Assembly: GCA_945869935.1 (NCBI GenBank)
Contig: CAMBSA010000072.1
Coordinates: 1 to 7,608 of the forward strand
Reading direction: 5' to 3'
DNA: 7,608 bases
DNA from: Bordetella parapertussis
Lineage (GTDB): Bacteria; Pseudomonadota; Gammaproteobacteria; Burkholderiales; SG8-39
The notes under the pieces were generated by a model, which saw nothing but the letters and a program-made list of their open reading frames with translations, was not told the DNA's origin and ran no database searches. Below are positions 213-7,608 of this stretch, in pieces (within the stretch, counting starts at the first letter, position 1; every line of letters starts with the position of its first letter). The position numbers were made by a program, and so were the translations under genes.

Positions 213-839
213 CTATCTCTTTGCGGCGCGCGTCAGTTCGCCGAAGCGTTTCTTCTCGTCGTCGTAGCGGGCGCTGATCGCGCTGTATTCCTTTTTCTTT
301 GCATCGAGCAGCGCCTGCTGGTTCTTCAGTTCGCTCTCTGTCATCTTCGACTTCCCGCTATCTGCGATGCGCTGTTCGATCTGCTTGATGACCTGCTCGG
401 GTGCGCGCAATGCCCTGCCGTGGGCATCGTCGATGTCCTTCTCGCTCGCATAGGTGTCAAGCAGCGCGGTGTCCCGGCGGCGCTGGTCTTTCGCTGCCGT
501 CTCCTCGTCCTGCTTTTTCTTGCGATCCGCCTCGCGCGCCACCTGTTGCTCCGGTGTCAGCGCCTCGCCCTGCTTGGTGACATTGCCGCGCTTGTCGAGT
601 TCGTTCACCGTCCGGCCGAGACACTCCTTGGGCGGGGTCTGGGTGTAGAAGGTCTTGCCTCCCGCATCGATGCATTTGTACATTTTCTGGGCGAACGATG
701 AAGGCGACACGAGGGCGGCGCAGCACGCGGTGGCAAGGAGGGCGAACGCGCGCAGTCGGACGAGCGTGATTGTTCGCGTGCCCGCAGGCGCGGCGGGAGA
801 TTTCGATCGAGCAGTCGACTGGGTGAATGTTCCGTTCAT
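213..839 (-). CDS. Secreted DUF4124-domain protein, downstream paralogue
   Basis: This is a 208-residue protein of unknown function. An N-terminal extension of about 25 residues precedes a hydrophobic segment (about 31-46) and a signal-peptidase-like site after SFA (residue 50), so export to the periplasm is expected. Residues 53-73 carry the DUF4124 signature, a YKC(I)DAxGKTFYTQTPPKEC-like stretch with Cys56 and Cys73 that could form a disulfide. The remainder is highly charged (Lys/Glu/Arg/Gln-rich) and probably forms a coiled coil, ending in an ELKNQQALLD block. The start ATG overlaps the stop of the upstream paralogue (ATGA, 836-839), which suggests translational coupling. A GGGAG sequence 9 bases upstream (849-853, minus strand) could serve as ribosome binding site. 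No other start codon lies in frame before the hydrophobic segment, so the unusually long n-region appears real. LATACC is a poor lipobox match, so I do not call it a lipoprotein. Confidence 0.85.
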   Translation of the reverse strand: MNGTFTQSTARSKSPAAPAGTRTITLVRLRAFALLATACCAALVSPSSFAQKMYKCIDAGGKTFYTQTPPKECLGRTVNELDKRGNVTKQGEALTPEQQVAREADRKKKQDEETAAKDQRRRDTALLDTYASEKDIDDAHGRALRAPEQVIKQIEQRIADSGKSKMTESELKNQQALLDAKKKEYSAISARYDDEKKRFGELTRAAKR

Positions 840-1465
840 TTCTTTGCGCTCCCGCCCTTGGTGAGTTCGACGAACCTGCGCTTGTCCTCGTCATACTTGG
901 CGTTGATCAGGCCGATCTCCTTCTTCTTCACGTCCAGGAGTTCCTGCTGATTCTTGAGTTCGTTCCCGTTGTTCTGCAGGTCCTGCTTGAGCTTGGGCGG
1001 CATGGCGGATTTTTTGTAGAACTCCGCTTCCTGGGCGAGAGCGGCGCGGCGTTTCTGGCCTTCTGCAATACGTTTCTCCGTATCCTTGATGGCCTCGTTG
1101 CCTGCCCTGAGTGCGCGCGTCCGCGCCTCCTCCACGTCACTTTCGCTCGAATAGGTATTCAGCAGCGCAGCGTTCTTGCGTCGTTCTTCCTTGGCGGCAA
1201 TGTCCTCTTCGGCCTTCTTCTTGCGCTCTGCATCGCGCGCCGCCTGCTGTTCCGGCGTCAGTACCTCGTTCCTGCGGGTGACGTTGGCCCGTTTGTCCAG
1301 TTCATCGACGGTACGGCCAAGGCATTCCTTGGGAGGCGTCTGGGTGTAGAAGGTTTTGCCCGAGGCATCGACGCACTTGTACATGCGAGACTGCGCCTGG
1401 CAGACGGACGGCGCGAGTGCGCTTGCGAGCAGCGCGGTGGTGATGAGAACAGTGCGAAAAGACAT
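836..1465 (-). CDS. Secreted DUF4124-domain protein, upstream paralogue
   Basis: This 209-residue protein is the first gene of a two-gene minus-strand unit. It has a clear Sec signal peptide (hydrophobic residues 5-19, probable cleavage after CQA at residue 24). The DUF4124 signature follows at residues 28-48 (MYKC, then TFYTQTPPKEC) with Cys31 and Cys48 conserved relative to its neighbour. Beyond this is a charged, probably helical/coiled-coil region rich in Lys, Glu and Ala, ending in an ELKNQQELLD block shared with the paralogue. It contains roughly 28 residues between its RIAEGQ and ELKNQQ segments that the downstream copy lacks. The start is well supported: GGAG at 1473-1476 (minus strand) sits 7 bases before the ATG. 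DUF4124 proteins occur widely in proteobacterial envelopes, but the function is not known and I do not assign one. Confidence 0.87.
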   Translation of the reverse strand: MSFRTVLITTALLASALAPSVCQAQSRMYKCVDASGKTFYTQTPPKECLGRTVDELDKRANVTRRNEVLTPEQQAARDAERKKKAEEDIAAKEERRKNAALLNTYSSESDVEEARTRALRAGNEAIKDTEKRIAEGQKRRAALAQEAEFYKKSAMPPKLKQDLQNNGNELKNQQELLDVKKKEIGLINAKYDEDKRRFVELTKGGSAKK

Positions 1466-2618: not shown

Positions 2619-3308
2619 ATGTACTTTCCTGACAAGACCCTCGCAGCCGAACTAACCGCGCGCATGCTGCTCGAGGTCAAGGCGGTCCACTTCAGCGACT
2701 CCAAGCCCTTCATCTTCACCTCCGGCTGGGCGAGCCCTGTGTACATCGACTGCCGCAAGCTGATTTCTTACCCGCGCGTGCGGCGTGCGCTGACCGACTT
2801 CGCCGCGGCAACGATCGTGCAGGAAGTCGGATTCGAGGCGTTCGACACGGTGGCGGGCGGCGAGACCGCGGGCATTCCCTACGCCGCATGGATTGCGGAC
2901 CGGCTTGACCTGCCGATGCAGTACGTTCGCAAGAAGCCCAAGGGCTTCGGCCGCATGGCGCAGATCGAGGGCGACATCAAGGAAGGTGCGCGCACCCTGC
3001 TGGTGGAGGACCTGACCACCGACGGCCGCAGCAAGATCAACTTCTGCCGTGCATTGCGCGATGCAGGCGCGATCGTGGATCACGTGTTCGTGAACTTCTA
3101 TTACGACATTTTCCCCGAGAGCAAGAAGATCCTGAAGGACATCGGCGTCGAACTGCACCATCTCGCCACCTGGTGGGACATCCTCGCGGTGCTGAAAAAG
3201 CAGAACTATCTGCCCGCGCAGCAGATCGACGAGATCGAGCGCTTTCTGCACAACCCGGCGGTGTGGTCGGCCGAGCACGGCGGCGCGTCGAGCTTTCCCT
3301 CGGAATAA
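2619..3308 (+). CDS. pyrE: Orotate phosphoribosyltransferase
   Basis: This 229-residue cytoplasmic enzyme joins orotate and PRPP to form orotidine 5'-phosphate and pyrophosphate, the fifth step of UMP synthesis. Visible motifs are the substrate region [15 protein letters not shown] (34-48), the GGETAGIP loop (80-87), the lysine-rich flexible catalytic loop [11 protein letters not shown] (102-112), and the PRPP-binding loop [13 protein letters not shown] (127-139) with the paired acids Glu130-Asp131. ATG 2619 is chosen because homologues begin near this point and a promoter appears to lie inside the longer reading frame; the ribosome binding site is weak. The sequence resembles, from memory, the longer form typical of alphaproteobacteria (MLLEVKAV..., [15 protein letters not shown] near the C-terminus) more than the roughly 215-residue E. 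coli-like form usual in Burkholderiales. It converges on the regulator gene, with only 26 bases between the two stop codons and no clear terminator. Confidence 0.94.
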
Positions 3309-3334: not shown

Positions 3335-4237
3335 TTACCTTCGCCGGCCGCGCGCCCCACGATTGCGCTCGAGGATATTCTCGAGCAGCGCTGCGCCGGC
3401 TGAGCCCTTGAGCGAGCGCTTCCACAGGTCGGCAACCATGCGCTCGTAGAGCGTCACCGCTTCTTCCGCCGCGGTGACGGTTGCTATGCCCACGCGAACG
3501 TTCGGCTGCTCGCCGAGGCGGAACGGACTGGTCGCGAGCACGGTCCGCGACTCGCCTCGGAACAACTGGAAGGTGATGTTGGGCATCGTGTCCTCCACAA
3601 GGCCGATCTGCACGCCTATCGGCTCCTCGCGCATCAGCCGGGCCACGTTGGCGATTTCGTCGCGCGCGGCGGCACGCCGCCGCTCCCATTCTCGCGCGGG
3701 GAGATCGAAGCGGCCGATCAGCCCGAGCTGCAGGAAGCGCTCGATTTCCGATACGGTGATCAGGCTCACGATGTTGAAGCGCCTGCTGTGCATCAGGGAC
3801 TTGCGGTGCTCGAGCACGCTCATCAGCCGGTCGATTTCAGCCGCGGCCCGACGGTTCTGCGCGAGCGCGGGCGGAAGCGATTCGATTAGCATGGTCCGCA
3901 GATGCGCGGTGTAGGCGGTGGTGGTGAGCAGGTACGACACCGGTTCGAAGTGCGCCACCACCTGCTGGGATTCGGCCTCGAGCTGGCGCATGCGCTCGAA
4001 ATAGCTCGGCGCGTTGCTGTAGTACTCCACCGCGACGCCCAGCAGCGACGCGGTCGAGGTGCCGATCACTTGCGCCAGCCGCGCCACGGTTTCGACCTTG
4101 ACCACCTCGCCCGCCTCGATCCGGTACACCGCGGCTCGTGAGATGCCGAGCTTCTCCGCGATCGCCGCTGCGGAGAGTCCGTGACCGAGCCGGTAGGCGC
4201 GCAGGCGATTGCCGATGTCCTGGAAGGGCGGGGTCAT
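3335..4237 (-). CDS. XRE-family transcriptional regulator with large C-terminal sensor-like domain
   Basis: This is a 300-residue probable DNA-binding regulator. Residues 8-67 form a Cro/C1-type helix-turn-helix (IGNRLRAYR..., then AIAEKLGISRAAVYRIEAGE, with the recognition helix about 33-41). The remaining 230 residues carry no motif I can name with certainty. Their layout (an EPVSYLLTTTAYT segment, an RKSLMHSRRFNIVSLITVSEIER segment, a PIGVQIGLVEDTMPNITFQLF beta-rich segment and a C-terminal helix) is reminiscent of the DUF5753 domain attached to actinobacterial XRE regulators; this is an impression only. ATG 4237 is preferred over GTG 4297 because the helix-turn-helix starts normally there and the longer form would read through an inverted repeat, although no strong ribosome binding site precedes either. 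The gene is divergent from the pyrK operon, with 194 bases between starts, so it most likely controls that operon, perhaps in response to orotate or an intermediate, and possibly itself. Confidence 0.85.
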   Translation of the reverse strand: MTPPFQDIGNRLRAYRLGHGLSAAAIAEKLGISRAAVYRIEAGEVVKVETVARLAQVIGTSTASLLGVAVEYYSNAPSYFERMRQLEAESQQVVAHFEPVSYLLTTTAYTAHLRTMLIESLPPALAQNRRAAAEIDRLMSVLEHRKSLMHSRRFNIVSLITVSEIERFLQLGLIGRFDLPAREWERRRAAARDEIANVARLMREEPIGVQIGLVEDTMPNITFQLFRGESRTVLATSPFRLGEQPNVRVGIATVTAAEEAVTLYERMVADLWKRSLKGSAGAALLENILERNRGARGRRR

Positions 4238-4249
4238 GATGTCGTGCGG

Positions 4250-4269
4250 ATTCCGTACGGTTACGGAAT
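4250..4269. promoter_or_regulatory. Perfect 8-bp inverted repeat, probable operator next to the regulator start
   Basis: ATTCCGTA-CGGT-TACGGAAT is a 20-bp perfect dyad with a 4-base centre, ending 12 bases upstream of the regulator ATG. On the minus strand, a -10-like TAAGAT immediately precedes and overlaps it. A protein bound here would block the regulator's own transcription, which suggests autoregulation. Its sequence differs from the CTGAGAC-type repeats nearer pyrK. Confidence 0.5.
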
Positions 4270-4313
4270 ATCTTAGCGCATGCGGCGGCCGGTGCACCGG
4301 ATTTGTGCGGGGC

Positions 4314-4341
4314 TTGACACACCTTCTGAGACTCGTCTAAG
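4314..4341 (+). promoter_or_regulatory. Putative sigma-70 promoter of the pyrK operon
   Basis: A perfect -35 box TTGACA (4314-4319) is separated by 16 bases from TCTAAG (4336-4341, 4 of 6 to the -10 consensus). Transcription would start near 4348, giving a leader of about 84 bases. The weak -10 and the overlapping repeats are what a regulated promoter would show. Confidence 0.55.
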
Positions 4342-4350
4342 TTCTGAGAC
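4324..4350. repeat. Direct repeats and dyad over the pyrK promoter, probable operator
   Basis: TTCTGAGAC occurs twice, at 4324-4332 and 4342-4350, with an 18-base period (just under two helical turns). The first copy also forms a near-perfect dyad, CTGAGAC-TC-GTCTAAG (4326-4341, 6 of 7 arm bases paired), whose right arm contains the -10 box. The second copy covers the expected start site. Binding by the divergent XRE regulator would repress transcription by steric hindrance; that assignment is inferred. Confidence 0.5.
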
Positions 4351-4370
4351 ACGCCCCAAGGCTTCTGTTT

Positions 4371-4407
4371 CCGGGACAGCGGTTTCCCGGGGGCGGACGT
4401 CCCCGCC
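4371..4407 (+). other. GC-rich inverted repeats in the pyrK leader
   Basis: Two hairpin-forming repeats lie in the untranslated leader: CCGGGA/TCCCGG (4371-4376 and 4385-4390) and GGCGG/CCGCC (4392-4396 and 4403-4407). The second surrounds a GGACGTCC palindrome and ends 17 bases before the weak GGAA ribosome site. They could influence leader stability or translation. In DNA this GC-rich they may also be incidental, and they match no riboswitch I recognise. Confidence 0.25.
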
Positions 4408-4431
4408 AGCACCGCGCAGCAATGGAACCTC

Positions 4432-5316
4432 ATGAGCACAGGCCAAATTCTCCAGCCGTTCCAGGACAGGATCGAAGCGCCGCCGCCGGTTGCGTTTCCG
4501 GTCGTGGACGCGCGCTGCACGGTGATCGGGAACAGAAGTGTGAACGAGCGCTATCGGCATCTGGTGATGGATGCGCCGGCAACGGTCTGCGATGCAAAAG
4601 CGGGCCAGTTTGTGCATCTTCTCTGCCCGCCGGTCGGCGCGGATGAGCCGTTTTTGCGTCGTCCGATGAGCGTTTATCGAACCGATCCGGCACGTGGCCG
4701 GATCGAGTTTCTCTACAACGTCGTCGGCTCGGGCACCCGCTCGCTCGCGGCGCTGAAGGCGGGGGATACGGTGATGGCGCTGGGGCCGCTTGGCTCGGGC
4801 TTCACGATTCCTTCAGGCGCCCGAACGGTGATGGTGGTCGCGAGGGGGGTTGGTTTTGCCACACTCGCGCCGCTCGTACCGCTCGCCGCGCTACTCGGAT
4901 TGCGCGTCGGCGCGCTGCTTTCCTCGCGTTCGCCCGAAGACTTCATGCGGTCCGAGTTCGAGCAGGGCGAGGCAGTCGAGATCCATGCGGTGTTCGACAG
5001 TGACGGTTCTTCGGACGTGTCGCGGGTGGAGGCTTTGCTTCGCGGATTGTTCGTCCGGGCGCGGCCGGATGCGGTGATTACCTGCGGATCGAACCGGCTG
5101 CTTGTCCTGCTGCAGAGGCTCTGCGCGGAGTTCGATATTCCGGGTGAAGTCGCGCTCGAGCAGCAGATGGCCTGCGCGCTCGGGGTATGCCTTTGCTGCG
5201 TGCGCAGCCTGCGCTCACGCGACGGGTCGATCGAGCACCGCAGGGTCTGCTGCGAGGGCCCGGTGTTCGACCTGCAGGCGGTGGTTCCCGCCGCGGGCGG
5301 AGGCCATGCGCGATGA
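4432..5316 (+). CDS. pyrK: Dihydroorotate dehydrogenase electron-transfer subunit (PyrK type)
   Basis: This 294-residue iron-sulfur flavoprotein of the ferredoxin-reductase superfamily passes electrons between NAD(H) and the FMN of PyrD. In order it has an N-terminal extension (about 1-25), an FAD-binding beta-barrel with RRPMS (76-80) and the NVVGSGT turn (96-102), an NAD-binding half, and a C-terminal 2Fe-2S site with Cys248, Cys253, Cys256 and Cys273 in the C-x4-C-x2-C-x16-C arrangement (ACALGVCLCC, then VCCEGPVF) typical of PyrK. Cys255 and Cys274 are extra. The usual glycine-rich GGGxGxAPL nucleotide loop reads ARGVGFATLAPL (137-148), a departure from the Gram-positive enzymes. At 294 residues it is longer than many PyrK proteins (about 250-260), mainly from the N-terminal extension. 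The start has only a weak GGAA site. Its stop overlaps the pyrD start by ATGA, as expected for subunits of one complex. A different oxidoreductase partner role cannot be excluded. Confidence 0.88.
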   Translation: MSTGQILQPFQDRIEAPPPVAFPVVDARCTVIGNRSVNERYRHLVMDAPATVCDAKAGQFVHLLCPPVGADEPFLRRPMSVYRTDPARGRIEFLYNVVGSGTRSLAALKAGDTVMALGPLGSGFTIPSGARTVMVVARGVGFATLAPLVPLAALLGLRVGALLSSRSPEDFMRSEFEQGEAVEIHAVFDSDGSSDVSRVEALLRGLFVRARPDAVITCGSNRLLVLLQRLCAEFDIPGEVALEQQMACALGVCLCCVRSLRSRDGSIEHRRVCCEGPVFDLQAVVPAAGGGHAR

Positions 5317-6248
5317 CGGCCGATACGGTTGATCTGTCGGTGCGCATCGGATCGATGCGCCTGCGCAATCCGGTGATGCCGGCCTCGGGCTGCTTTTCGC
5401 ACGAATTCGGTCAGGTGTTCGATCTCGGCCGGCTCGGTGCGGTGGTGGCCAAGAGCGTCACGCCCAAACTGCGCAAGGGCAACCCGCTGCCGCGGGTGGC
5501 CGAAGTATCGCGCGGGATGCTCAATTCGATCGGCATCCCGAGCAAGGGTCTCGCGCACTTCGTGGGCGACGTCGTGCCGCTGTATCGCGATTGCGGCGCG
5601 CCGCTGGTGGCAAGCGTGTCGGCGGACACGGTGGCGGAATTCGCCGACGCGGTGGAGGTGCTGTCGGTGCCGGGTATAGCTGCAATCGAGGCGAACATTT
5701 CGTGCCCCAATCTCGAGGCGGACGGACGCGCCTTCGCGATGCTGCCCGACACGGCCCACGCGGCCATCGCCGCGATGCGCAGGCGCACGCACCTCCCGAT
5801 CTGGGCCAAGCTCACGCCCAATACCGGTGACATCAAATCGGTCGCGCTGGCAGCAGAGGCGGCGGGCGCGGATGCCCTGGTGGTCGCCAACACGATCCTC
5901 GGCATGTCGATTGACGTGCGCAGCTTTCGTCCGTCGCTCGGCAATGTCATGGGCGGATTGTCGGGGCCGGCGATCAAGCCGATCGCGGTTCGGCTGGTGT
6001 ACCAGTGCGCCACGGCGGTGAAGATCCCGGTGATTGGCAGCGGCGGCATTACCACCGCGGAGGACGCGGTCGAATTCATGCTTGCGGGGGCGAGCGCGGT
6101 GCAGGTGGGAACCGCCTCCTTCCTCCACGCCGATGCGATGATCCGGATCATCGAGGGGATCGAGGCGTTTTGCCTCGCGCGCGGCATCGGGCTCGTGAGC
6201 GAGCTGGTGGGCGCGGCGAAAATCGAACATGAGGTGCTGGAATGGTGA
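5313..6248 (+). CDS. pyrD: Dihydroorotate dehydrogenase catalytic subunit, class 1B type
   Basis: This 311-residue FMN TIM-barrel enzyme interconverts dihydroorotate and orotate. Seen motifs are ASGCFSHEF (24-32), Lys47 in AKSVTPK, the substrate loop NSIGIPSKG (71-79), ANISCPN (127-133) with probable catalytic Cys131, Lys166 in AKLTPN, ANTILGMSID (192-201), GGLSGPAIKP (214-223) and the FMN-phosphate motif IGSGGI (241-246). A catalytic Cys, rather than Ser, marks class 1, and the adjacent PyrK points to the NAD-linked 1B form. Dihydropyrimidine dehydrogenase (PreA) is less likely: the C-terminal 4Fe-4S ferredoxin domain is missing and the substrate loop has NSxG, as in dihydroorotate dehydrogenases. 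The start is ATG 5313, inside the pyrK stop (ATGA). Burkholderiales normally make pyrimidines with a membrane class 2 PyrD, so a 1B pair here suggests a separate role, probably running in the reductive direction. Confidence 0.9.
   Translation: MTADTVDLSVRIGSMRLRNPVMPASGCFSHEFGQVFDLGRLGAVVAKSVTPKLRKGNPLPRVAEVSRGMLNSIGIPSKGLAHFVGDVVPLYRDCGAPLVASVSADTVAEFADAVEVLSVPGIAAIEANISCPNLEADGRAFAMLPDTAHAAIAAMRRRTHLPIWAKLTPNTGDIKSVALAAEAAGADALVVANTILGMSIDVRSFRPSLGNVMGGLSGPAIKPIAVRLVYQCATAVKIPVIGSGGITTAEDAVEFMLAGASAVQVGTASFLHADAMIRIIEGIEAFCLARGIGLVSELVGAAKIEHEVLEW
6231..6236 (+). promoter_or_regulatory. Shine-Dalgarno sequence within the end of pyrD
   Basis: GAGGTG, 5 bases before ATG 6242, supports initiation of the hydrolase inside the last codons of pyrD rather than at a later start codon, and indicates coupled translation. 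Confidence 0.55.
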
Positions 6249-7516
6249 ACCGGGTGTTTTCGCCGGGATCGGACTACGCGCGAATGGCGGAGTCCCTGTT
6301 CGACGAGTTGCGTGCGATGAGTGCGGACGTGGCGGGCGTGAGCCGGCCCTCGTACGGCGAGATGGAAACGCGGGTGCTCGCGCATCTCGAGCGCGTCGCG
6401 AATTCGGCAGGCCTCGCGTCAGCGTACGACGGCGCGGGAAATCTCTGGATGGGTGCCGCTGGCGACACGACCGGAGGTGAACGCAGAATCGTGTCCGGCT
6501 CGCACGCCGATTCCGTGCCGCGAGGCGGCAACTTCGACGGACTCGCCGGCATAGTGGCGGCGATACTCTGCGCGGTTCGCGCTACCCGCGACGCCGAGCG
6601 GCCAAGATTGCCGGTCGCGGCACTCGGCCTGCGCGGTGAGGAGAGCGCGTGGTTCGGCAAGGCCTATCTCGGGTCCGCAGCCCTGCTCGGCCAGCTAACC
6701 GAGGCCGATCTCGCGCGCGGGCACCGCAGCACGCGCGAACCGCTGTCGGACTACATGCGACGCGCGGGCGTGGACCCCGCGCGCTGCCTTGGCGGCAAGC
6801 CGATGATCGACCTGTCGGGAATCGCGGCTTTTCTCGAACTGCACATCGAGCAGGGGCCGATGCTGGAAGAAGCAGGCCGCGCGGTCGGCGTGGTGACGGG
6901 AATTCGCGGCAATTTCCGCTATCGACAGGTACGTTGCATCGGCGAGGCGGGCCACTCGGGAACCGTCCCCAAACGGCTGCGGCGTGATGCGGTGTTCGCG
7001 GTATCGGACCTGCTCTCGCGCATCGAGGAAGCCTGGGAGGAATGGCTGGCAGCGGGCGAGGACCTCGTCGTCACCTCCGGCATGGTCCACACCAATCCGG
7101 ACCAGGATGCGCCTTCGATCATTGCGGGCGAGGTCGGTTTCAGCCTGGAGGTGCGCAGCCAGTCGATGGCAACGCTTGAGCGCTTTCACCGGTCGATCCT
7201 CGAGGAATGCGCCTCGCTCGAACAGTCGCGCGGCGTGCGCTTCGAATTCGGGGAGCGCATCGATTCGCCTTCGGCCGTCATGGACTCCGCGCTCTCGGCG
7301 CGGATGGCGAAGATCTGCCGCAGGCGGGAGATTCCGTTCATCATCATGCCCAGCGGCGCGGGTCACGATGCGTCGCTGTTTTCAAACGCAGGGGTCCCCT
7401 CGGGCATGGTATTCGTCCGCAACGCCTTCGGCTCCCACAATCCGCAGGAGAGCATGTCGATCGAGGACTTTCTTCTCGCCGCCGACGTGCTCTACGACTG
7501 CATGCTTTCCATCTGA
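6242..7516 (+). CDS. M20-family N-carbamoyl amino acid hydrolase (candidate ureidosuccinase)
   Basis: This 424-residue metal-dependent amidohydrolase belongs to the group of L-carbamoylase (HyuC/AmaB), allantoate amidohydrolase (AllC) and beta-ureidopropionase. The metal ligands are visible: His88 (GSHADSVPRGG), Asp99 (NFDG), Glu134 with catalytic Glu133 (GEES), His201 (LHIEQGP) and His399 (SHNPQE). His238 (GHSGTVP) and Arg305 (FSLEVR) match the substrate-contacting His and Arg of known L-carbamoylases. The usual NVIPG motif reads SIIAG (292-296), so the Asn that normally helps hold substrate is Ser. The usual TTPM after the dimerisation-domain His reads TVPK, adding Lys244 near the site. These changes suggest a different substrate. 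Within an operon of dihydroorotate enzymes, N-carbamoyl-L-aspartate is the best guess, giving aspartate, CO2 and ammonia. Its start overlaps pyrD by 7 bases. No signal peptide is seen, so it acts in the cytoplasm. Family confidence is high, substrate confidence moderate. Confidence 0.9.
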   Translation: MVNRVFSPGSDYARMAESLFDELRAMSADVAGVSRPSYGEMETRVLAHLERVANSAGLASAYDGAGNLWMGAAGDTTGGERRIVSGSHADSVPRGGNFDGLAGIVAAILCAVRATRDAERPRLPVAALGLRGEESAWFGKAYLGSAALLGQLTEADLARGHRSTREPLSDYMRRAGVDPARCLGGKPMIDLSGIAAFLELHIEQGPMLEEAGRAVGVVTGIRGNFRYRQVRCIGEAGHSGTVPKRLRRDAVFAVSDLLSRIEEAWEEWLAAGEDLVVTSGMVHTNPDQDAPSIIAGEVGFSLEVRSQSMATLERFHRSILEECASLEQSRGVRFEFGERIDSPSAVMDSALSARMAKICRRREIPFIIMPSGAGHDASLFSNAGVPSGMVFVRNAFGSHNPQESMSIEDFLLAADVLYDCMLSI

Positions 7517-7535
7517 TATTGAAAGAACGCACTTC

Positions 7536-7608
7536 ATGAGCAAGGAAAATCCACCCGGCATTACTCTGGTCATCCGTGGCGCCCGCCTTCTTGACCCCGT
7601 CAGCCCCG
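7536..7608 (+). CDS. Dihydroorotase-like cyclic amidohydrolase, N-terminus (partial, runs off window)
   Basis: The first 24 codons are present, from ATG 7536. The segment ITLVIRGARLLDPVSP has the opening beta-strand and (L/I)IRxARxxDP pattern of dihydroorotase, dihydropyrimidinase and hydantoinase N-termini; dihydroorotase fits best. The gap from the hydrolase stop is 19 bases and contains only a weak AAAGAA-type ribosome site, so the gene is probably in the same operon. A dihydroorotase here would convert dihydroorotate to N-carbamoyl-aspartate, linking PyrD to the M20 hydrolase. The metal-binding HxH motif lies beyond the window, so the assignment to this superfamily member is provisional. 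Confidence 0.6.
   Translation, partial: MSKENPPGITLVIRGARLLDPVSP

Follow-up and report, generated by a model that had tools for sequence, protein, structure and literature searches.

The locus analysed here raises the question of whether a class 1B dihydroorotate dehydrogenase encoded next to an M20 carbamoylase-family hydrolase serves UMP synthesis or the breakdown of orotate. The window, i.e. the whole stretch of 7,608 nucleotides that was analysed, being the entire contig C72 of genome G000, probably carries an orotate-degrading operon (pyrK, class 1B pyrD and the M20 gene) with substrate import and XRE control, a predicted function to which we assign a probability of about 0.84. The initial annotation had proposed a set for orotate catabolism, a proposal receiving strong support from genomic context, while its assignment of the ring-opening gene in the window was wrong.

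Gene content of the window and identity of the encoded enzymes

The window comprises the following features:

2619..3308, plus strand: pyrE, orotate phosphoribosyltransferase (NF001729, 389 bits, over cut-off)
3335..4237, minus strand: XRE-type regulator (HTH_31/HTH_3), divergent from the operon, C-terminal domain predicted to be phospholipase-D-like
4335..4350, no strand: predicted operator from motif search and scan, an imperfect palindrome that reads GTCTCAGAACTTAGAC on the minus strand and lies in the interval from the XRE gene to pyrK
4432..5316, plus strand: pyrK, FAD/[2Fe-2S] electron-transfer subunit of class 1B dihydroorotate dehydrogenase (PF10418, 42.6 bits, cut-off 23.9)
5313..6248, plus strand: class 1B pyrD, FMN subunit, predicted orotate reductase (NF005574, 344 bits, cut-off 269)
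6242..7516, plus strand: M20 hydantoinase/carbamoylase-family hydrolase, predicted N-carbamoyl-L-aspartate amidohydrolase (ureidosuccinase; TIGR01879, 243 bits, cut-off 204)
7536..7608, plus strand: start of an ATZ/TRZ-type aminohydrolase gene (full copy L025:10580-12121 in G001, a genome of the same genus, with a TRAP transporter after it)

The four open reading frames on the same strand are as tightly packed as had been claimed, their coordinates giving a 4-bp overlap (5313-5316), a 7-bp overlap (6242-6248) and a 19-bp gap before the ATG at 7536, with 24 codons of the fourth gene falling inside the window. The divergent XRE-type gene and the PyrK, class 1B PyrD and M20 calls had also been named correctly, the three enzyme models all scoring over cut-off. 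pyrE was found in a single copy in G000 and likewise in G001, and it is thus probably a housekeeping gene with the cluster beside it, making the pyrE neighbourhood alone weak evidence in the window's genome. The TRAP transporter, the operator and the spread to Alpha- and Gammaproteobacteria go beyond the initial annotation.

PyrK combines an FAD domain with a [2Fe-2S] domain (Pfam DHODB_Fe-S_bind over cut-off; PF00970 at 20.0 bits, just under the cut-off of 21.1), four cysteines being seen by eye in CALGVCLCC...VCC. It scores 112 bits with NF000798 (equivalog cut-off 219) and below cut-off with all other listed PyrK equivalog models, which points to a diverged PyrK. PyrD also exceeds the cut-off of TIGR01037 (306 versus 270 bits), and K47, N71-S-I-G, N128-I-S-C131-P-N and N193-T, presumably the orotate-site residues including the active-site Cys, are invariant in eight family members. 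Its closest solved relatives are dihydroorotate dehydrogenases, including the B form 1ep1. Subunits, family membership and orotate-site residues are those of the Lactococcus lactis-type PyrDB-PyrK, which is biosynthetic, whereas the cluster pair occurs alongside a class 2 pyrD and its predicted direction is the reverse one. A potential near -250 mV may apply to the orotate/dihydroorotate couple. At the much lower value of about -470 mV stated in a passage of a review (PMC8097209), NADH-driven orotate reduction would be uphill unless hydrolysis pulls, which counts against the reductive direction.

The M20 protein belongs to the hydantoinase/carbamoylase family, its two-metal site being conserved: H88, D99, E133, E134, H201, H399 and R305, presumably the metal and catalytic residues, are kept across 76 aligned proteins (H88 in 75, with one gap), one row of the 76 (L068_5) being a second copy outside the cluster. 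Three of 11 comparison rows (L016, L018, L021) were ignored as apparent wrong-strand translations. An Arg following the AllC Asn site, considered as an aspartate-specific residue, is present in 68 of the 76 proteins but is Ile in the window's lineage, and we therefore claim no residue signature for aspartate. A comparable enzyme is ErtE, an N-carbamyl-L-glutamate amidohydrolase and hence an M20 carbamoylase acting on an acidic N-carbamoyl amino acid, from which the window protein differs in scoring 261 bits with NF058540, below the equivalog cut-off of 520. Judged by its gene context, it is predicted to be a candidate ureidosuccinase (EC 3.5.1.7).

Extending the sequence beyond position 7608 by means of the G001 copy (L025), as the initial annotation had suggested, revealed a full aminohydrolase of 513 amino acids followed by the TRAP transporter. 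This gene had been called dihydroorotase-like, a call rejected on the models and solved relatives of the full same-genus sequence. Its best NCBIfam hits are TRZ/ATZ, 8-oxoguanine-deaminase and guanine-deaminase models, with neither dihydroorotase model (TIGR00856 or TIGR00857) among the best 25 of 41 hits, all 25 lying below their own cut-offs. Among solved structures, MTA/SAH deaminase and atrazine chlorohydrolase come closest, and the metal-ligand motifs (HxH, H, H, D) are intact, placing the protein in the ATZ/TRZ aminohydrolase branch. It is likely a feeder enzyme deaminating a related heterocycle.

Conservation of the cluster and biosynthetic genes elsewhere

A survey of homologous loci, suggested by the initial annotation, bore out the order of its first three genes. 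Of the 86 PyrD-centred loci examined, drawn from many named genera, 70 have PyrK, PyrD and M20 directly after one another on the same strand, so that their association is more than chance. The counts cover the 80 best of 569 confirmed stretches and describe near relatives of the window PyrD rather than all bacteria. Within 8 kb, PyrK is present in 84 of the 86 loci, M20 in 75 (the call being absent in 11), XRE in 47, MFS in 42, class II PyrC (dihydroorotase) in 28, DctM in 25 and AspA (aspartase) in 12. These gene calls were made by an in-house script, which may miss genes (PyrD was not found in L111), and L033 was left out as a duplicate of L029. The cluster recurs across Alpha-, Beta- and Gammaproteobacteria and is in part plasmid-borne. 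By our own gene calls, a Cupriavidus campinensis plasmid carries XRE, divided from MFS-PyrK-PyrD-M20-PyrC-AspA-malic-enzyme-like-porin; a P. putida plasmid carries, as annotated, MFS-PyrK-PyrD-M20-dihydroorotase-hypothetical-malic-enzyme-like-chemotaxis receptor, the dihydroorotase passing NF006688 (701 versus a cut-off of 535). A Klebsiella plasmid carries MFS, divided from PyrK-PyrD-M20-pyrC-XRE-small protein, with pyrC reaching 411 in TIGR00856 (cut-off 293) and PyrK, annotated as hypothetical, being 69% identical to the survey PyrK group. For the small companion protein a confident five-helix model was obtained, the structure comparison returning no significant solved relative.

The catabolic reading is supported by a class 2 pyrD separate from the cluster in 57 of 59 cluster genomes checked, including the window's genome, for which this check had been proposed; in the other two, both MAGs (L035, L083), none was found. 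It is further supported by the extra class II dihydroorotase in many clusters, by aspartase and malic-enzyme-like genes in some, and by a transporter gene of the MFS or TRAP type, which 66 of the 86 loci have within 8 kb. Ten genomes have two class II PyrCs, one copy lying in the cluster in all ten, as assigned by contig position. Against orotate degradation stands the lack of a dihydroorotase in the window's own operon. The proposed check for a separate pyrC showed PyrC to be encoded outside the cluster in G001 (C46) and, as a partial copy below the model cut-off, in G000 (C25). TIGR00857 was discarded as a class I dihydroorotase test, being too broad, since 53 of 59 genomes but also 14 of 14 controls match at 1e-60; of the eight genomes without class II PyrC, seven have a TIGR00857 match over cut-off and G039 has one only below it.

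Alternative readings and the proposed pathway

Could the cluster instead supply UMP, with the transporter importing orotate, dihydroorotate or carbamoyl-aspartate, PyrKD oxidising dihydroorotate, PyrE making OMP and M20 trimming excess? The presence of pyrE within 8 kb in 54 of the 86 loci and the pyrimidine-biosynthesis GO term on pyrD in three annotated plasmid records would fit, and two pyrE matches in 12 of 59 genomes, with one diverged copy in the cluster in several (e.g. G066, G032), are consistent with salvage. We consider this quite improbable, as nearly all of these genomes already have a class 2 pyrD, a carbamoylase would destroy the intermediate, and some clusters also have aspartase or malic-enzyme-like genes or a chemotaxis receptor, which speaks for catabolism. 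A different reducible ring, e.g. an amino- or otherwise substituted pyrimidine carboxylate, might be the substrate of PyrKD and M20, orotate not being the physiological one. The nature of the fourth gene speaks for this, as do its relatives (45-47%) in G082, G179, G222 and G297, which directly precede an AtzD/TrzD-group ring-opening amidohydrolase gene (tested by Pfam for G082); yet clusters with TIGR00856-type dihydroorotases (e.g. L062) or PyrE and the retained orotate-site residues of PyrD point to orotate, leaving this reading rather unlikely.

The product of the fourth gene might also have evolved dihydroorotase activity within the ATZ/TRZ branch and provide the ring-opening step that the operon otherwise lacks. 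It occupies the position of PyrC or another dihydroorotase in other clusters, its metal ligands are intact, and the G066 run continues after pyrE with an ATZ gene of 34% identity. A closer G066 relative (47%) lies on the opposite strand, however, L064 has PyrC next to an ATZ relative (41%) that reads in the same direction, and the four relatives adjoining AtzD-type genes argue in the same direction, so that we judge a dihydroorotase function of this gene very unlikely.

According to the orotate-degrading reading, substrate uptake likely falls to the TRAP transporter encoded downstream in G001, its place being taken in many other loci by an MFS carrier. PyrKD would reduce orotate to dihydroorotate with NADH, ring opening would be left to a PyrC dihydroorotase encoded elsewhere in the window's genome, and the M20 hydrolase likely splits N-carbamoyl-L-aspartate into aspartate, CO2 and ammonia, with the divergent XRE regulator likely binding the palindrome at 4335-4350 and controlling the operon. 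For comparison, orotate enters E. coli and Salmonella via the C4-dicarboxylate carrier DctA, as stated in an excerpt of PMC13328217.

The same sequence of orotate, dihydroorotate, ureidosuccinate and aspartate is familiar from orotate fermentation by Clostridium (Zymobacterium) oroticum and orotate breakdown in aerobic bacteria, whose enzymology dates from the 1950s-60s and included a degradative dihydroorotate dehydrogenase distinct from the biosynthetic one; the proteobacterial cluster differs in being a gene set with transporter, regulator and predicted operator. To our knowledge, orotate catabolism and ureidosuccinase are known mainly from old enzyme work, and we found no gene assignment for orotate catabolism among the literature matches listed. 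The reductive uracil/thymine route (PreTA/PydA, dihydropyrimidinase, N-carbamoyl-beta-amino acid hydrolase) likewise reduces, opens and decarbamoylates, whereas in the cluster PyrKD and PyrC replace PreTA and dihydropyrimidinase, and PyrE is orotate-linked. Its last enzyme is described in passages of PMC4016543 as homologous to allantoate amidohydrolase, the family of the window M20. In the DHase X1 or ygeW-ygeY-hyuA clusters, too, a dihydroorotate dehydrogenase relative occurs together with cyclic amidohydrolases and an M20 protein; X1 belongs to another dihydroorotate dehydrogenase clade and is linked to purine genes, PyrK, PyrE and PyrC not being named among the neighbours in the relevant passages of Barba et al. 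2013 (PMC4016543). If the orotate-degrading reading is true, the cluster would give orotate catabolism its genes and ureidosuccinase a candidate gene, a biosynthetic enzyme pair is likely reused in reverse, and annotations would be corrected for the cluster pyrD and for the hydrolase, named only 'Zn-dependent hydrolase' in the three plasmid records.

The XRE regulator and its predicted operator

The window XRE protein is 99% identical to its same-genus copy and 40-55% identical to 39 of 40 others aligned. Its AF2 model (pLDDT 90; best Foldseek E 3e-4, TM-scores low) leads us to predict a phospholipase-D-like C-terminal domain, and we predict the protein to regulate the pyrK-pyrD-M20 operon. 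XRE matches at 1e-60 occur in three of 397 genomes of the phylum, its own included (at most five candidates scored per genome). Its use as a specific cluster marker was rejected, since neither of the two other matches, in G589 and G648, is near a PyrKD cluster or has an operator in the 18 kb taken. More tentatively, at not quite even odds, we propose a widespread, partly plasmid-borne proteobacterial orotate regulon, in which a single XRE, sensing through a phospholipase-D-like domain, and a single operator (GTCTCAAAAATGAGAC) would govern uptake, reduction, ring opening, the missing ureidosuccinase, aspartate breakdown and interchangeable front-end modules (ATZ aminohydrolase, Rieske oxygenase, molybdenum hydroxylase) turning other heterocycles into orotate.

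Simple inverted repeats were sought upstream of 47 XRE genes, with a single unrelated hit, and the palindrome ATTCCGTA-CGGT-TACGGAAT near 4250 was dropped as operator, not being found in the same-genus locus L025. The 48 upstream regions taken from XRE-bearing loci, many of them from related species, include 28 in which the palindrome at 4335-4350 scores, versus 0-2 in shuffles, the remaining 20 not reaching a score of 12. The motif has a log-likelihood of 285.8 versus 34-50 in six shuffles. It is the only match at one mismatch or fewer in each of G000 and G001, a reversed-pattern control also giving one each. The predicted regulator-operator pair is testable, and the operator is also present outside the training set, i.e. 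in L124 and L127, weak hold-outs since their regulators share 97% and 89% identity with those of training loci L112 and L062, and in L126 with scores of 13.2-14.5.

Gene clusters around PyrD

The window makes up the whole of a 7608-bp contig (C72) from a 2.6-Mb assembly that is 72% complete, and the following features were located in it:

2619-3308, pyrE
3335-4237, minus strand, divergent gene of an XRE-type regulator
4335-4350, predicted operator
4432-5316, pyrK
5313-6248, class 1B pyrD
6242-7516, M20 gene (hydantoinase/carbamoylase-family hydrolase)
from 7536, start (24 codons) of an amidohydrolase-superfamily gene

The gene spacing described in the initial annotation agrees with these ORF coordinates. 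Two adjoining genes at 213-1465 (minus strand) encode similar, apparently secreted proteins (MYKC...GK.FYTQTPPKECLGRTV; compared by eye), perhaps resulting from a tandem duplication.

Scanning genome contigs with a PyrD alignment confirmed 569 stretches, of which we used the best 80; their named hosts belong to the Alpha-, Beta- and Gammaproteobacteria. Together with the loci of our G-series genomes and after removal of one duplicate this resulted in 87 loci, gene-called by a custom script and clustered, 86 of them with a PyrD call.

Genes within 8 kb of PyrD in the 86 loci (best 80 of 569 stretches plus G-series loci)
PyrK: 84
M20: 75
PyrE: 54
XRE: 47
MFS carrier: 42
Class II PyrC: 28
DctM: 25
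DctP: 20
DctQ: 20
AspA: 12
ATZ/TRZ-type aminohydrolase group (ATZ): 4

PyrK, PyrD and M20 directly follow one another on the same strand in 70 of these 86 loci, and 66 contain an MFS or DctM gene. Eight genomes of the same family, including the same-genus genome G001, have TRAP transporter, PyrK, PyrD and M20 genes grouped, with pyrE beside or within the run. One example per group was tested for PyrC (TIGR00856, 435 bits, cut-off 293), AspA (TIGR00839, 692 bits, cut-off 681) and MFS (matched below the cut-off of the best NCBIfam model). No M20 call was obtained in 11 of the 86 loci, some of which carry another gene set. In L073, L089, L100, L107 and L109 the setting of PyrK-PyrD differs, the accompanying genes resembling by eye those of HyuA/HyuB-type hydantoinases and of racemases, which perhaps represents another ring-reducing pathway. 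Just upstream of the cluster, L034 (5502-7889) and L064 (1-1689) encode a molybdenum hydroxylase large subunit of the xanthine/CO dehydrogenase type, the family being tested in L034 and the L064 gene belonging to the same cluster group.

The catabolic reading and the biosynthetic genes

From this gene inventory we infer a route in which orotate would be imported by a TRAP or MFS carrier and reduced by PyrD with electrons passed from NADH via PyrK. The ring would be opened by a dihydroorotase, encoded within the cluster in many loci and, for the window, presumably by PyrC encoded elsewhere in the genome. Hydrolysis of N-carbamoyl-L-aspartate by M20 would be an irreversible step pulling the chain, and the aspartate would enter central metabolism, in some loci via AspA and malic enzyme. 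The genes of orotate catabolism are not described among the open-literature matches listed (titles and abstract beginnings, subscription papers being mostly outside this scope).

PyrD residues K47, N71-S-I-G, N128-I-S-C131-P-N and N193-T, which we take to be those of orotate-binding class 1 enzymes, are kept in all eight aligned proteins. Across 76 aligned M20 proteins the presumed metal-binding and catalytic residues are kept with one gap at H88, and at window position S292, where AllC has Asn, 73 of them carry Ser, Ala or Thr. The following residue is Arg in 68 of the 76 and Ile in the window lineage; we therefore dropped this Arg as a substrate side-chain signature and make no side-chain claim for M20.

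A protein search of plasmid records yielded M20 in 72 records, 53 of these from Klebsiella, all below 60% identity. Gene sets were examined in four records:

P. putida: HTH regulator, hypothetical protein, MFS, PyrK, PyrD, M20, dihydroorotase, small protein, malic-enzyme-like protein, chemotaxis receptor
K. quasipneumoniae: MFS, PyrK (annotated as hypothetical), PyrD, M20, pyrC, XRE, small protein
C. campinensis (unannotated; own gene calls): small protein and XRE, then MFS, PyrK, PyrD, M20, PyrC, AspA, malic-enzyme-like protein, porin
A. tumefaciens: PyrK, PyrD, M20 beside an ABC transporter

The P. putida regulator matches a survey XRE protein at 97%, and its dihydroorotase scores 701 with NF006688 (cut-off 535). 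The full predicted orotate set is present in the single Klebsiella record examined (L126), out of the 53 with M20. Aspartase and malic enzyme would be expected downstream of aspartate, and their presence in some clusters is the strongest argument for catabolism.

Biosynthesis is covered outside the cluster, according to a check of 59 host genomes (nine plus the hosts of 50 of the 79 loci from named organisms). A separate class 2 pyrD, proposed as a check in the initial annotation, is present in 57, including the window's own genome G000 (C191) and G001. A separate pyrC copy lies away from the cluster in G001; in G000 the match is partial and below the cut-off (C25). Class II dihydroorotase is present in 51 of the 59 genomes; ten have two copies, one of which lies, judged by contig position, in the cluster in all ten. 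Of the eight genomes without it, seven match the class I-type model TIGR00857 above cut-off, a model that also matches 14 of 14 control genomes. A pyrE match was obtained in 51 of the 59, with two matches in 12. The copy beside the cluster is the only pyrE of G000 and G001, suggesting that the window pyrE is probably a housekeeping gene.

The fourth gene as a candidate feeder enzyme

The same locus in G001 (L025), with an M20 99% identical, extends beyond M20 and supplies the amidohydrolase and permease sought past position 7608: a full fourth gene of 513 amino acids, followed by the TRAP transporter genes DctP, DctQ and DctM. The full copy does not bear out the dihydroorotase-like assignment made from the stub. 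It is matched best by models of TRZ/ATZ-type chlorohydrolases and deaminases, the best 25 of 41 matches all being below cut-off with no dihydroorotase model among them. Among solved structures it is related to MTA/SAH deaminase, atrazine chlorohydrolase and 8-oxoguanine deaminase.

Relatives at 45-47% identity occur in four of 200 genomes of the order, all from one other genus, and each of the four is followed by a member of the AtzD/TrzD ring-opening amidohydrolase group (Pfam PF09663, tested in one of the four). G082 and G179 have a PyrE-M20 pair at a distance of one gene from this relative, and no PyrK or PyrD was found within the 19 kb taken. Further relatives are located inside or close to orotate clusters in L030, L064 and L082, the L064 gene adjoining PyrC. 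From these matches and neighbourhoods we conclude that the fourth gene probably encodes a feeder aminohydrolase. In L119 (6628-15816) and L120, a PyrE-M20 pair lies near genes for an ATZ aminohydrolase, an AtzD/TrzD ring-opening amidohydrolase, an ornithine cyclodeaminase-like protein and an amidase; PyrK and PyrD were not found in this stretch.

Small helical proteins, predicted operator and XRE regulator

Small all-helical proteins of about 108 amino acids form three sequence groups (e.g. L074:8387-8710, L037:15352-15678, L045:7089-7424) and occur near 37 of the 86 clusters (best 80 of 569 stretches plus G-series loci), the groups being found within 8 kb of PyrD in 16, 14 and 7 loci. Profile comparison clearly links groups 12 and 14 and more weakly group 21. 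Neither Pfam nor NCBIfam returned a match for the one example tested per group, and no significant solved relative of the structure model was found.

A motif search in upstream regions (250 bp, extended by 40 bp into the gene) of 48 XRE-bearing loci (the window and 47 others, including its near-twin L025) returned the palindrome GTCTCAAAAATGAGAC. The 17-bp operator model has a log-likelihood of 285.8 compared to 34-50 in six base shuffles, and scores at least 12 in 28 of the 48 regions compared to 0-2 in the shuffles. At a score of at least 13, the XRE-bearing loci (921 kb) gave 81 sites and the loci without an XRE call (701 kb) gave 9. This contrast is partly circular, since part of these loci served to train the model and many of them are related. 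Own gene calls place 85 of the 90 sites in intergenic regions, many of them ahead of genes for transporters, PyrK, AspA, porin or XRE. Outside the training set, candidate sites are present in L126 (13.2-14.5) and L125 (12.8) as well as in two loci closely related to training loci, L124 and L127. Allowing up to one mismatch, the predicted window operator gives a single match in G000 and in G001, as does a reversed control pattern. The predicted operator further occurs upstream of Rieske oxygenase, citrate/sulfate-type permease and ferredoxin reductase genes (L046:13073-16795, families tested there; L085:13070), which suggests further entry routes into the pathway.

The structure model of the XRE protein is confident, with a pLDDT of 90. 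For the C-terminal part of the protein, structural matches with low TM-scores point to phospholipase-D-like folds and, less strongly, to the sugar-binding domain of TrmB; we predict a phospholipase-D-like fold for this domain, which to our knowledge is unusual in XRE regulators.
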